A stretch of DNA of 53,803 nucleotides from Microcystis viridis FACHB-1342 (GTDB taxonomy: Bacteria; Cyanobacteriota; Cyanobacteriia; Cyanobacteriales; Microcystaceae). The notes beneath the pieces were generated by a model. The model saw nothing but the letters and a program-made list of their open reading frames with translations, was not told the DNA's origin and did not search any database. Where the stretch lies: NCBI RefSeq assembly GCF_014698335.1, contig NZ_JACJSV010000032.1, positions 1-53,803 of the forward strand. The letters are read 5' to 3'. The translations under genes were made by a program, and so were the position numbers. Of this stretch, positions 20,474 to 25,438 are shown piece by piece (the stretch's first letter is position 1; each line of letters begins with the position of its first letter).

Positions 20474-21736
20474 CTAAGATACACCTCGTTTTCTTTTCGC
20501 GATAACATCGTCAGAGATTCCCCAATAGTTTGATGCCTGAGACATATTATATAGCAATAAGTCTTCGGGCATTTTTTCCAAAATAAGCTGGTCGAAATTG
20601 GCTGGATTAATATTCATTGCTCCCATCACAGAAGAGCCAAGTTCTTTCGATAATAGCGGAATAACTGCATTACCAATCTCACGAAAACCATGCCATATTG
20701 TGCGGTGAAACTGAAACCAATCGGGGAATGTATGTAATCTGGCGGCTTCTCGTACAGTAATACAACGAGGAATAGAATAGTGAATGGGTCTAGGAGCAGT
20801 ATAGGCCCCTTTGTCACTATTAGTTCCGGCCCGGAGAGTGTTACATAAACCAGTAGGAGAAAGCTTGAAAAAGCGACTTTTTGGTTCCACTGTACCCGGT
20901 TCGGTTACGATAAATCTATCAATTGATCTTTGGGTATGAACTGAGCCTATATGTCCATAGATTTTTGTATCTACTATTCTTTGATGGCAAAGTTTAAAAA
21001 TATCCCCTGGCTGCACTGAATATTTTTTCCTCTTACCACTATAATCTAATTTTGATGCAGGTATGCCTAAATCAGTATCGATAAAGGCAGGTATTAATTC
21101 TAAATCTGAAATCGCATCATAGACGCTGGTAAAAGCTGATTTTTTGGCTGAGTTTAAATCGACGGTCTTTGTCAAAGGATATTTAGCCATCGGCACGTCT
21201 TTTCGACTACCAATTAAGATTAATCTTCTGCGCTTTTGTGGTGCGCCATATTCACTGGCATCCAGGATTTTAATTGGCTGATTAATTGTATAGCCAATAG
21301 CTTCAAATTCAGAAATTAACTCCTCTAAAAATTGTTTGTGTTTACCCGTAGCCATGCCGGGGACATTTTCAAAGATAAAATACTTGGGTTTAATTTCTGC
21401 TACAATCCGCAGATATTCAAATACAAGAGAATTTCTAGGATCATCTATTTGTCGTTTACCAATCAATGAAAAACCTTGGCAGGGGGGACCGCCGGCAATT
21501 AAACTAACATCGGTGGCATAGCCTTTTAGTTTTAATAATTCCCATATTTCTCTACTTGTTACTTTGGCTATATCCCGGCAAATAGTTTGACAATAGGGAA
21601 AGTTAAAATGATGAACCAAGGAATGGACTGCATCAAACTCCACCGCTACAGCAATATCAAATCCCGCCGCTTCTAGACCAAGGGACATCCCACCGCAGCC
21701 GGCAAATAAATCGATCGCAATTGGTCTATGTTTCAC
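20474..21736 (-). CDS. DNA (cytosine-5) methyltransferase
   Basis: A 420-residue C5 methyltransferase with all main motifs in order: I (DLFAGCGGMSLGLE, SAM binding), IV (GGPPCQGFS, catalytic Cys), VI (ENVPGM), VIII (QKRRRLILIGSR), a target-recognition region (about 220-320), IX (REAARLHTFPDW) and X (EIGNAVIP). It is complete and probably active; the recognition site cannot be read from sequence. No restriction endonuclease of a known family is adjacent. Instead it follows a DUF262 gene and a HEPN gene on the same strand (85-nt gap), suggesting a modification-linked defence module. Confidence 0.95.
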   Translation of the reverse strand: MKHRPIAIDLFAGCGGMSLGLEAAGFDIAVAVEFDAVHSLVHHFNFPYCQTICRDIAKVTSREIWELLKLKGYATDVSLIAGGPPCQGFSLIGKRQIDDPRNSLVFEYLRIVAEIKPKYFIFENVPGMATGKHKQFLEELISEFEAIGYTINQPIKILDASEYGAPQKRRRLILIGSRKDVPMAKYPLTKTVDLNSAKKSAFTSVYDAISDLELIPAFIDTDLGIPASKLDYSGKRKKYSVQPGDIFKLCHQRIVDTKIYGHIGSVHTQRSIDRFIVTEPGTVEPKSRFFKLSPTGLCNTLRAGTNSDKGAYTAPRPIHYSIPRCITVREAARLHTFPDWFQFHRTIWHGFREIGNAVIPLLSKELGSSVMGAMNINPANFDQLILEKMPEDLLLYNMSQASNYWGISDDVIAKRKRGVS

Positions 21737-21821
21737 TTTGATGATTAGCTCTCTATTGTCTGCCTTTTATTATACTGTATTTCTGATATAATTAACAATT
21801 TAAGTTTTATTAAGAGTGGAA

Positions 21822-22460
21822 TTACTTGAGCAAGTTAGTAATCAATTGATCGACTTTCTCTAATTCTTGAATAATTTGTTTAACTCTCTCTAATTCGTCG
21901 GCAGGGTTAGGCGTTTTTTTCGTTTTTATTCCCGAAGAATGAGCGATTTCACCGCGTTCTTCTCCAAAAGTATTCATATTGGCTAACCAAACTTTATCTA
22001 AGTCATCACTATCGATGCCGATTGGTAAGAGTAATTTTAATAGGTTAGTTTCCTTAATCCCATGATTTTGATCGATAACTGATTTAAAACATCTAATCAC
22101 TATGTCAATTTTTTTAGTTATTTTCAGTTTGTCTAGGGAGACATTTTTGTTACCTTTAAGAGGAGTAATGGTATCGGGAGGATTTTCCATTTCTTGACCA
22201 GAAAAAGCGATTACACATAACAAAACTCCACTAGCTTTACCTTGATTATCCCAGATATTTTTTGCTGTCTGTACTGTATCCCAAACTCGATCTTCAAGAT
22301 AAGATTCAATCTCAGCATGAGCAAAAACTCGATAGGCAAAAGTTAAAGCTAATTGTCTTTCAGAATAGTCATTTATCTCGCTGAATTTACGAGGTAGGAA
22401 TTGTTTTTTGAGTCGATTTAATTCTTTGGTTAGTTGTCTAAATCTTAGAGATTTCGGCAT
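21822..22460 (-). CDS. HEPN-domain protein, MAE_28990/MAE_18760-like
   Basis: A 212-residue, largely helical protein. An ALTFAYRVFAHAEIESYLED segment (38-57) and R169-GEIA-H174, an R-X4-H HEPN RNase motif, suggest a ribonuclease. The sequence resembles the HEPN family named after Microcystis genes MAE_28990 and MAE_18760 (recognised from memory). It begins 13 nt after the DUF262 stop codon, so the two are translationally linked. HEPN proteins next to DUF262 or methyltransferase genes usually belong to defence or toxin-antitoxin systems. The RNA target and trigger are unknown. Confidence 0.8.
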   Translation of the reverse strand: MPKSLRFRQLTKELNRLKKQFLPRKFSEINDYSERQLALTFAYRVFAHAEIESYLEDRVWDTVQTAKNIWDNQGKASGVLLCVIAFSGQEMENPPDTITPLKGNKNVSLDKLKITKKIDIVIRCFKSVIDQNHGIKETNLLKLLLPIGIDSDDLDKVWLANMNTFGEERGEIAHSSGIKTKKTPNPADELERVKQIIQELEKVDQLITNLLK

Positions 22461-22473
22461 AGTAAAAAAACAA

Positions 22474-23715
22474 CTATCTTAACCCCTTAAAAATAATACG
22501 ATTGTCTTCCATCTGAGGAATATTGAAGTTAATATCTAATACTTTTGATAAAGCTTGACCCCATAAATTAAAACGATTGTAAGTTGCTCTAATACTTTTA
22601 GTAGTTTTTTCTACTGAGTTCCTAAATTCATTGTCAGGGTTAGATAATAATTCTTTAAAAGCATTTTCTATCTGTTCTTTGTTTTTCTCGGCAGCTGCTC
22701 TAATTAGATCATCGCAAAAGTAAAAAACCATCACATCTAAAATTGCTCGATTGAACTGACTTCGATACTTTCCTTCTTTATATAACCAGAGACGAGAAAA
22801 GTTTTTCTCTCCAAAAATATTAATTGTTGTTTGGACAGCTTTTTCAAATTGATCAACAACATTGATAATTTCATCTGAGCGTTTTTCCCATTCTTGATTG
22901 AAATTTTGACAGGTTTTATCTAGAAGTATCTTAACATCACCGCGATAATCGGATAAATAATAATGAAAAGCTACATAACGCAATAATATATCAGTGTCGC
23001 GCATCCGGAAATCGGGATAGGAAGATTTAAATATTTTCTTTAATGCTTGACTTTCGATCGCTCGATCATCTAAAAAATTAATAAAACCCCCTGGGTGTAA
23101 TGCTTGTCTTAATTCTTGAGAAGACAAAGGGGTATTTTCCACATTGAGACGCAGAAAAATTTTATGGAGGAAACTCTCCGTTTTCCAATTACGGATAACA
23201 ATCGTGCGGATAGTTTGATTATCCAGTTGGTCTAAGAAATCATTTAAATTGAAGTCATTTTTTAGATCTTGATATTGGCAGCCATTGAGATTATCTAGAA
23301 ATTCTAAATCTTTTAAAGTAAAACTATTATTAGGTGTGGCACTGTCACCATAAAACTGTAAAATTGTTAGTAGGCGTTGTTTGCCATCAAGAACGATAAA
23401 TTTACCTTTTTCCTTATTATTAGCAGCTAAGACAATCAGTGGGACTGGAAACCCTAGAATTAGGGATTCAATAAATCGACTTTTACGAGTAATATTCCAA
23501 GCATCTCGTCTTTGAAAGCGCGGATTGAGTTGAATATTTTCTCGAATTAATTGATCGCGGATCGTTGCGGTAGTCCAATCACTGCTGGCAACAACAGTCT
23601 CGGAGATTTCTTTGAGTTGTAGCTTTTTTTGGTTTGCTGATTCTCCTGCAATATCTTCTTCTTCTTCGGCAAAATCCACCGCTTCTCTTTCTTCCAACAT
23701 CTCTAACTGTGCCAT
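22474..23715 (-). CDS. DUF262 (ParB/Srx-fold) protein
   Basis: A 413-residue DUF262 protein. It shows NPRFQRRDAWN near residue 64 and the D110-GKQR motif (VLDGKQRLLTIL), the nucleotide-binding and hydrolysing signature of the GmrSD/SspE N-terminal fold. No C-terminal DUF1524 HNH domain is evident, so the nuclease function may come from the HEPN partner. I start it at the ATG at 23715; the frame opens at a TTG at 23751, but that codon lies in the terminator of guaA. First gene of a three-gene minus-strand module with the HEPN and methyltransferase genes. Confidence 0.87.
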   Translation of the reverse strand: MAQLEMLEEREAVDFAEEEEDIAGESANQKKLQLKEISETVVASSDWTTATIRDQLIRENIQLNPRFQRRDAWNITRKSRFIESLILGFPVPLIVLAANNKEKGKFIVLDGKQRLLTILQFYGDSATPNNSFTLKDLEFLDNLNGCQYQDLKNDFNLNDFLDQLDNQTIRTIVIRNWKTESFLHKIFLRLNVENTPLSSQELRQALHPGGFINFLDDRAIESQALKKIFKSSYPDFRMRDTDILLRYVAFHYYLSDYRGDVKILLDKTCQNFNQEWEKRSDEIINVVDQFEKAVQTTINIFGEKNFSRLWLYKEGKYRSQFNRAILDVMVFYFCDDLIRAAAEKNKEQIENAFKELLSNPDNEFRNSVEKTTKSIRATYNRFNLWGQALSKVLDINFNIPQMEDNRIIFKGLR

Positions 23716-23749
23716 GGTAGTAATTAATCTCCTCAATTGTCTATTCTGC

Positions 23750-23777
23750 AAAAATCCCGCCCCAATATTTGGACGGG
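23750..23777 (-). terminator. Rho-independent terminator after guaA
   Basis: On the minus strand CCCGTCC, a 7-nt loop, then GGGGCGGG are followed by ATTTTTG. This GC-rich stem plus U run separates guaA from the DUF262 module and means the module needs its own promoter. Confidence 0.75.
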
Positions 23778-23803: not shown

Positions 23804-25438
23804 CTACTCCCATTCTATAGTTCCGGGAGGCTTAGAAGTAATATCATAAACCACGCGGTTAACTCCCTTAACTTCATTGACAATACGATTAGAAATTGTC
23901 TCCAATAAATCATAGGGAACCCGGGACCAATCGGCAGTCATTCCGTCTTCACTGCTGACTAAACGTAGGACAATAGGATAAGCGTAGGTACGTTGATCTC
24001 CCATCACTCCCACACTGCGGACAGGCAATAAAACTGCGAAAGCTTGCCAGAAATCGTGATACATTCCCTGCTTATTAATCTCGTCGCGCACCACCCAATC
24101 TGCATCGCGCAAAATATTTAATTTATCTGCGGTGACTTCCCCTAAAATGCGAATCGCTAAACCAGGGCCGGGGAAAGGTTGACGACGAACAATTTCTTCT
24201 GGAAGACCGATCGATCGGCCTAATTTTCTCACCTCATCCTTAAATAATTTTCGCAGAGGTTCGACTAATTTAAACCGGAGATTTTTCGGCAGTCCACCAA
24301 CGTTATGATGACTTTTAATTTTAACCGCTACTCTTTCCCCGGTTTTGGGATCCACATTACTATCGGCCGATTCAATCACATCGGGATATAAAGTTCCTTG
24401 GGCCAGATAATCAAAGGGTCCCAAACGATTCGATTCTTCTTCAAACACCTGAATAAATTCATGGCCGATACGACGGCGCTTTTCTTCGGGATCGGTGACA
24501 CCGGCCACTTGCGCTAAAAATCGCTTTCTAGCGTTGACATACTGGACTCCGATATGGAATTGCTCGTTAAATATCTGCATTAATCGTTCGGGTTCACCCT
24601 TACGCATGAATCCCTGATCGATAAACATACAGGTTAGTTGATCACCGATCGCTCGATGCAAGAGGAATGCTAAGGTAGAGGAGTCCACACCGCCGGATAA
24701 AGCCAATAAAACTCGCTTATCGCCCACTTTTGCCCTAATTTCTCGGATCGATTCCTCGACAAAAGCTTCCGTGGTCCAAGTGGGTTCGCATTTGCAGATA
24801 TGATAGACGAAATTGCGAATTAAGGCGATTCCTCCCACAGAATGGACAACTTCCGGGTGAAACTGCACTCCAAAGAGTTTTTTCTCGTGATCGGCAATGG
24901 CCGCACAATCGGTATTATCGGTATGAGCGAGAATTTCAAAACCCGCAGGCAATTCCACGCAGGAATCCCCGTGACTCATCCAAGCGGTGGAACCGTCCTC
25001 GACATTGGTTAATAAATCGGTAGGATCGTTGATAAATAGGGATGCTTTGCCGTATTCGGCCCGTTTTGCCCGTTCTACCCTGCCCCCTAACTGCTGTACC
25101 ATCAATTGCATCCCGTAGCAAACTCCGAGGATGGGTACACCTAAATTCCAAATTTCGGGATCACAGTGGGGCGCTCCAGGATCATAGACGGAATTGGGAC
25201 CGCCCGAAAGAATTATTCCTTTCGGGTTGATTTGGGCTAATTGTTCGGCGCTGGTACGATAGGAGAGAACTTCGGAGTAAACGTTCGTTTCCCGGATTCT
25301 GCGGGCGATTAATTCAGAATACTGGGAGCCAAAGTCAAGAATGATGATTATTTGACGATTAAGGCTATTAGTGAAGGACTCTGAGGGCAAAGTCTCTTGG
25401 GGGGTGGGAAGGGGGGTTTGAGTTGTCACTACGATCAA
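23804..25438 (-). CDS. guaA: GMP synthase (glutamine-hydrolysing)
   Basis: A 544-residue full-length GuaA converting XMP to GMP with ATP and glutamine. The glutamine amidotransferase domain (about residues 28-220) has the catalytic Cys in GVCYGMQ and the His-Glu pair in GVQFHPEV. The ATP pyrophosphatase domain has the P-loop [11 protein letters not shown], and the dimerisation domain ends in the conserved KPPGTIEWE. The start is uncertain (TTG at 25438 or GTG at 25429). The 3' end of guaA is a known integration site for genomic islands, and the accessory DUF262-HEPN-methyltransferase module begins directly after it. Confidence 0.97.

Follow-up and report, generated by a model that had tools for sequence, protein, structure and literature searches.

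A conserved DUF262–HEPN gene pair, probably separate from the adjacent cytosine methyltransferase, beside guaA of Microcystis viridis FACHB-1342

Genes at the guaA locus

Three adjacent minus-strand genes, coding for a DUF262 protein, a HEPN protein and a cytosine-C5 methyltransferase (MTase), follow guaA in the 53,803-nucleotide (nt) stretch of Microcystis viridis FACHB-1342 DNA that was analysed (the window, which is contig C65 of a 4.7-Mb genome, G000). We found that the DUF262 and HEPN genes form one conserved two-gene unit, and that the MTase is a neighbour of this unit, probably not its member. It appears fairly likely that the pair is a self-contained, PD-T4-2-like defence system, composed of DUF262 and RiboL-PSP-type HEPN proteins, which was inserted between guaA and an orphan MTase. 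The features of the locus are as follows.

22474..23751, minus strand: DUF262 protein (GmrSD_N, ParB/Srx-type), putative sensor/NTPase; TTG start, 425 amino acids (aa); assigned by Pfam, PADLOC, invariant motifs and fold comparison
21822..22460, minus strand: HEPN protein of the RiboL-PSP type, predicted ribonuclease (RNase) effector; 212 aa, with R169-x4-H174
20474..21736, minus strand: cytosine-C5 MTase, orphan of the M.Ssp6803I/DmtC type, predicted to make m5CGATCG; neighbour, probably outside the unit; GTG start, 420 aa
21769..21798, minus strand: promoter-like site TTGTTA-N18-TATAAT between the HEPN and MTase genes, found by motif scan
23804..25438, minus strand: guaA (GMP synthase), housekeeping neighbour at the left edge of the putative insertion; assigned by translation and tblastn

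The intergenic gaps are 52 nt (guaA–DUF262), 13 nt (DUF262–HEPN) and 85 nt (HEPN–MTase). The original prediction, which had been made from the window alone, described three minus-strand open reading frames (ORFs) in a row with 13 nt between the first two, and our coordinates agree with it. An alternative start of the DUF262 gene, ATG at 23715, would give a protein of 413 aa, in whose numbering D110 falls in DGKQR. The neighbouring genes, guaA included, were identified by eye from translations, with no profile scan, and then traced in relatives by tblastn. Within these limits no restriction endonuclease was found among the neighbours in the window, in agreement with the earlier statement that no classical enzyme of this kind lies nearby.

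The DUF262 and HEPN proteins as a pair

A HEPN profile scanned against GTDB genomes yielded 34 named loci (6 from Microcystis, 16 from further cyanobacteria and 12 from outside that phylum), overlapping in part with a survey of 386 cyanobacterial genomes. In this neighbourhood survey, which had been suggested together with the original prediction, a DUF262 gene, or in a few cases its remnant, was found immediately upstream of HEPN and on the same strand at all 34 loci, from cyanobacteria to acidobacteria; a similar MTase beside the pair occurred only in Microcystis. The same upstream gene was present in 11 of the 12 non-Microcystis survey genomes, the twelfth bearing a HEPN remnant only. The gap between the two genes, measured at 27 loci, ranged from −11 to +39 nt and was 14 nt in eleven of them. 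Evolutionary distances of the two proteins were strongly correlated (r 0.96 for 28 paired sequences, that is 378 non-independent pairs). Genome G000 itself encodes five such pairs (on contigs C65, C70, C73, C91 and C51), with HEPN proteins of differing subfamilies; that of C73 is fused to Ribonuc_L-PSP and that of C51 has an in-frame stop. Thus, five of its six DUF262 proteins are paired, as the sixth (a 601-codon frame on C105) had no HEPN match on its contig.

The DUF262 protein was recognised by Pfam as GmrSD_N/DUF262 (PF03235, E 3.8e-22), and among PADLOC models it matched NsnA (3.7e-67), PD-T4-2_A (8.3e-32) and, weakly, REase_II (7.3e-05). The meaning of the name 'Nsn' was not found in open-access literature. 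Residues invariant in 31 aligned sequences (Q80-R81, D122-G123-x-Q125-R126, F199 and N203) correspond to QR, DGQQR and FxxxN, motifs named for a GmrSD-type protein in the account of PMC12137116. When the structural model of this protein was compared with known folds, BrxU, SspE and ParB came first, with BrxU at the top, covering model residues 42–399; the alignment stops at residue 419 of the 580-residue BrxU chain. A search of PDB sequences with the DUF262 profile retrieved BrxU at E 0.006 together with two unrelated chains. Searching with the single DUF262 or HEPN protein revealed no relative of either, the HEPN profile gave nothing useful in PDB, and with Foldseek alone neither model had a match at E ≤ 0.001. 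The window protein shares QR, DG(Q/K)QR and FxxxN with BrxU, GmrSD and SspE, the type IV-like enzymes that combine DUF262 with DUF1524, but it differs from them in that Pfam detected no C-terminal HNH/DUF1524 deoxyribonuclease (DNase) domain, as had been noted originally, and in leaving the putative effector role to a HEPN protein encoded by its own gene.

The latter matched HEPN_RiboL-PSP (PF18735) with E 3.3e-10 and 40.6 bits (cut-off 28.4). The R-GEIA-H motif reported for it earlier is present as R169-GEIA-H174, and both R169 and H174 were invariant in 33 of 33 aligned homologues. The HEPN helical fold is present in its model, with HEPN toxin entries as the nearest fold matches. No PADLOC second-component model matched this protein or seven relatives, although it was not established that the library holds such a model. 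Ribo L-PSP-HEPN was listed as 'operon with ParB' by Anantharaman et al. (2013, PMC3710099), who cited a Microcystis L-PSP fusion; the family and the ParB/DUF262 neighbour are the same as here, and the fusion resembles that of C73, but the window HEPN is a solo domain.

One could suppose that the DUF262 protein itself nicks or cuts DNA as a ParB-like nuclease, the HEPN protein being an accessory or structural subunit of a DNA-targeting restriction enzyme. The ParB partner of MAE_28990 HEPNs was indeed called a nuclease by Anantharaman et al. (2013, PMC3710099), and the faint REase_II match points in the same direction. However, a structural subunit would not need its catalytic residues kept, so the invariance of R169 and H174 argues against such a role, as does the lack of any DNase domain in the Pfam scan. 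We thus consider a DNA-cutting DUF262 protein very improbable.

Among Microcystis alleles, differences in the DUF262 protein cluster at residues 276–300 and 351–400, in its helical C-terminal part. Because the synonymous substitution rate (dS) is also higher in the variable part (0.176 over residues 321–425 vs 0.035 over residues 46–220), recombination with divergent alleles in these C-terminal segments is suggested.

The methyltransferase as a neighbour

In the original prediction the three genes were joined into one modification-linked system. According to such a model, the MTase would mark self DNA, the DUF262 protein would detect unmarked or wrongly marked DNA, and the HEPN protein would kill the cell. 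The MTase is complete, as had been claimed, since its DNA_methylase match in Pfam (E 9.7e-67) spans profile positions 4–321 of 324. Nevertheless, a gene resembling it was found beside the pair at 0 of 28 non-Microcystis named loci (tblastn, E 1e-3, flanks of up to 8 kb per side, some of those fetched, at L118 and L126, being short), and in the fetched regions of 0 of 12 non-Microcystis genomes of the cyanobacterial survey. Its inheritance is independent as well: the MTase was present in 105 of 386 genomes (E ≤ 1e-60; single copy in 99 of the 105, with at most four candidates scored per genome) vs 19 of 386 for HEPN (E ≤ 1e-5). Both the absence of the MTase beside most pairs and its independent inheritance therefore speak against the three-gene proposal.

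Proteins encoded next to the pair were collected with a crude gene caller from 26 of the 28 non-Microcystis loci (L115 and L120, which nearly duplicate L103 and L119, were left out). None of these 99 proteins matched the PADLOC MTase_II model at 1e-10; a single protein matched the type IIG models, and a single one a type II restriction endonuclease model. Housekeeping enzymes were the commonest neighbours among the 25 Pfam families listed out of 96. Genome G000 has nine C5 MTases, and of its five pairs only that of the window has such a gene in its vicinity on the same contig, the view being limited for the C51 and C70 pairs, which are situated close to the end of a contig. Co-occurrence of HEPN and MTase was rejected as evidence of linkage: all 18 HEPN-positive genomes of the order to which the window belongs have the MTase, but it is carried by 98 of 104 genomes of this order, so that about 17 of 18 would be expected by a hand count.

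What, then, is the MTase? Directly after guaA, less than 100 nt apart and without the pair, its orthologue lies in two genomes of the Synechocystis genus, which belongs to the same family, G076 (Synechocystis sp. PCC 7338) and G093, where it is 65 and 63% identical to the window enzyme, respectively. In Synechocystis 6803, slr0213 is given as guaA (PMC8385029), and slr0214 as M.Ssp6803I, which makes m5CGATCG in HIP1 (PMC6604393); from the gene numbers, and with slr0214 itself left out of the alignment, we infer that these two are adjacent. Since the window MTase is syntenic after guaA, and in view of its sequence and the literature, it is most likely an orthologue of M.Ssp6803I/DmtC, predicted to make m5CGATCG, the core of HIP1, differing in context as Microcystis has a defence pair between guaA and the MTase. 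Across 26 aligned homologues the recognition region has a short common core (RAGT...RPIH), while the remainder is 33–55% identical outside Microcystis. The window contains 77 copies of CGATCG vs 10.7 ± 3.2 expected. According to Elhai (2015, PMC4390886), the distribution of CGATCG MTases nearly coincides with that of over-represented HIP1, six exceptions apart, and M. aeruginosa NIES-843 is classed there as 'imprecise HIP1'.

As the Synechocystis-genus relatives have guaA and the MTase directly joined, insertion of the pair between guaA and an already resident MTase, in Microcystis ancestry, is the most likely course. HEPN was absent from 10 of 10 same-family non-Microcystis survey genomes. 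A single CGATCG site, at 23055, lies inside the pair, which is in keeping with its later arrival. The flanking guaA is 99–100% identical in the named Microcystis loci (L097–L100, L112 and L114). An apparent guaA match at L124 was dismissed as a local match of 98 residues, hence it does not represent a second guaA site.

The MTase and the pair also had separate fates across 12 Microcystis genomes. The MTase is free of stops in 12 of 12 genomes, whereas HEPN is broken or gone in five: in G386 a premature stop shortly precedes the catalytic motif, in G251 the gene is disrupted, in G390 it is almost completely deleted ('gone' refers here to the guaA site, as G386–G390 were not searched genome-wide for HEPN), and G388 has frame breaks and G235 a stop. 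Full-length HEPN is retained in six (G000, G310, G095, G355, G097 and G387), and in G389 its last residues are altered. The mean ratio of nonsynonymous to synonymous substitution rates (dN/dS) was 0.12 for the MTase and 0.05 for guaA, vs 0.38 for HEPN and 0.45–0.59 for DUF262 regions, in small sets that include one stop-bearing DUF262 allele (G390) and one stop-bearing HEPN allele (G386).

The promoter-like site upstream of the MTase gene agrees with the consensus at 10 of 12 positions and was the best of 19 hits, although the number of hits was near chance (13.6 ± 3.4 in shuffles). Its TATAAT is kept in all 12 Microcystis genomes, the window included, also where the pair and the MTase are separated, and judging from this sequence the MTase gene may have a transcript of its own.

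In G387 (L057) a short repeat-like insert lies between HEPN and the MTase, with a duplicated TATAAT-containing stretch on either side, which is reminiscent of a small mobile element; a similar insert replaces the deleted HEPN of G390 (L056). In G389 (L073, 5220–14033) the last HEPN residues are replaced by about 9 kb that separate the pair from the MTase, and this stretch contains an ORF of 1720 codons as well as ORFs of 306 and 312 codons with alike beginnings.

Several observations weigh against a self-contained pair inserted at this site. The main fact favouring a link with the MTase is their adjacency in most Microcystis: the pair or its remnant adjoins the MTase on one strand in 9 of 12 genomes; in G389 about 9 kb lie between the two, and G388 and G235 have them on different contigs. 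Two genomes of the Synechocystis genus (G014 and G080) have only distant MTase matches, and in six others of the same family (G105, G133, G143, G147, G183 and G266) an MTase relative, 46–48% identical, is found elsewhere than beside guaA, so that the position behind guaA varies. Loss of the pair in Synechocystis, instead of its insertion in Microcystis, is an admissible alternative.

Adjacency on one strand is also what could be cited for the three-gene system, and so is the statement of Anantharaman et al. (2013, PMC3710099) that the related MAE_28990 HEPN is 'in operon with a ParB nuclease and DNA methylase genes'. Against it stand the lack of recurrence outside Microcystis, the guaA–MTase junctions devoid of the pair, the other four pairs of G000, the intact and more strongly constrained MTase, and its own promoter-like site. 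We rejected the three-gene module on the grounds of recurrence, synteny and the separate fate of the MTase, and a self-marking system of this kind seems highly unlikely. Thus, of the original proposal, membership of the MTase was not supported, and the idea of a DUF262 sensor coupled to a HEPN RNase stood, as a conjecture. The operon-like trio is a tempting but most likely false link; by synteny, a defence pair was most likely inserted next to an older MTase.

Possible function and spread of the pair

A DUF262 sensor with an RNase partner is plausible, and would be of an already known kind. PD-T4-2, reported to protect the E. coli strains ECOR65 and K-12 against T4 (Vassallo et al. 2022, PMC9519451), is listed in a review under DUF262 and PF18735 HEPN (PMC10952713), that is, with the same architecture. 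The window DUF262 protein matches PD-T4-2_A, is devoid of DUF1524, and has a PF18735 partner; it differs in fitting NsnA better and in having no PADLOC second-component match. The host and phages of PD-T4-2 are also different, and the likeness was drawn through a model and a description rather than through the PD-T4-2 sequence. No paper on the mechanism of a DUF262–HEPN pair was found in open-access literature.

By analogy, we infer that the DUF262 protein would be a BrxU/GmrSD-type protein deprived of its C-terminal DNase, whose ParB-like nucleotide pocket, presumably capable of NTP hydrolysis, and helical region may detect some mark of an infecting phage, conceivably modified or otherwise foreign DNA. 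It would then relay the signal, perhaps by direct contact, to the separately encoded HEPN protein, and cutting of RNA through R169/H174 could stop both the cell and the phage, an abortive outcome. The nucleotide-dependent sensor and the RNA cleavage of the original prediction are retained in this conditional form.

Could the pair be, instead, a toxin–antitoxin system, in which the DUF262 protein acts mainly as an antitoxin keeping the HEPN RNase inactive, any defence being a by-product? The two-gene layout and the closeness of the HEPN model to HEPN toxins would fit. Nine of the 12 Microcystis genomes have an open DUF262 frame; intact HEPN with broken DUF262 was seen in none of the 12, and the reverse in two (G386 and G251), which would fit as well. 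However, the partner is a GmrSD-type sensor/NTPase and not an MNT nucleotidyltransferase, the variable DUF262 segments suit a sensor, and PD-T4-2, the tested relative, was discovered through phage protection (PMC9519451). We therefore find a primary antitoxin role unlikely.

Within the preferred interpretation of a self-contained defence pair, a more specific version can be offered tentatively, and we would sooner bet against it than for it. The pair might correspond to type IV restriction but be directed at RNA: a BrxU-like reader of modified or foreign DNA would have exchanged its attached DNase for a detachable HEPN RNase, and the same cue would lead to RNA decay and dormancy and not to DNA cutting; specificity would then reside in DUF262 residues 276–300 and 351–400. 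Good material for testing is provided by the five paralogous pairs in one genome, the Microcystis allelic variants and the natural strains with broken HEPN and intact DUF262.

Pairs of this type also occur on mobile elements. One lies between tail genes of the Klebsiella phage ST16-OXA48phi5.4, and Peduovirus P24B2 carries DUF262 with a MAE_28990-type HEPN. On a Rhodococcus sp. WB1 plasmid typed as conjugative (L133, 3822–5669), a DUF262 gene is followed directly by a HEPN ORF, which scored just below the PF18735 cut-off and is missing from the PLSDB gene table. A separate problem is the same-strand ORF of about 102–118 codons that begins 23–42 nt after HEPN at seven loci (L106–L109, L111, L113 and L117). 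Two of these small Nostocales ORFs (L106 and L107) were scanned and gave no clear family; the ORF could represent a third, lineage-specific component.

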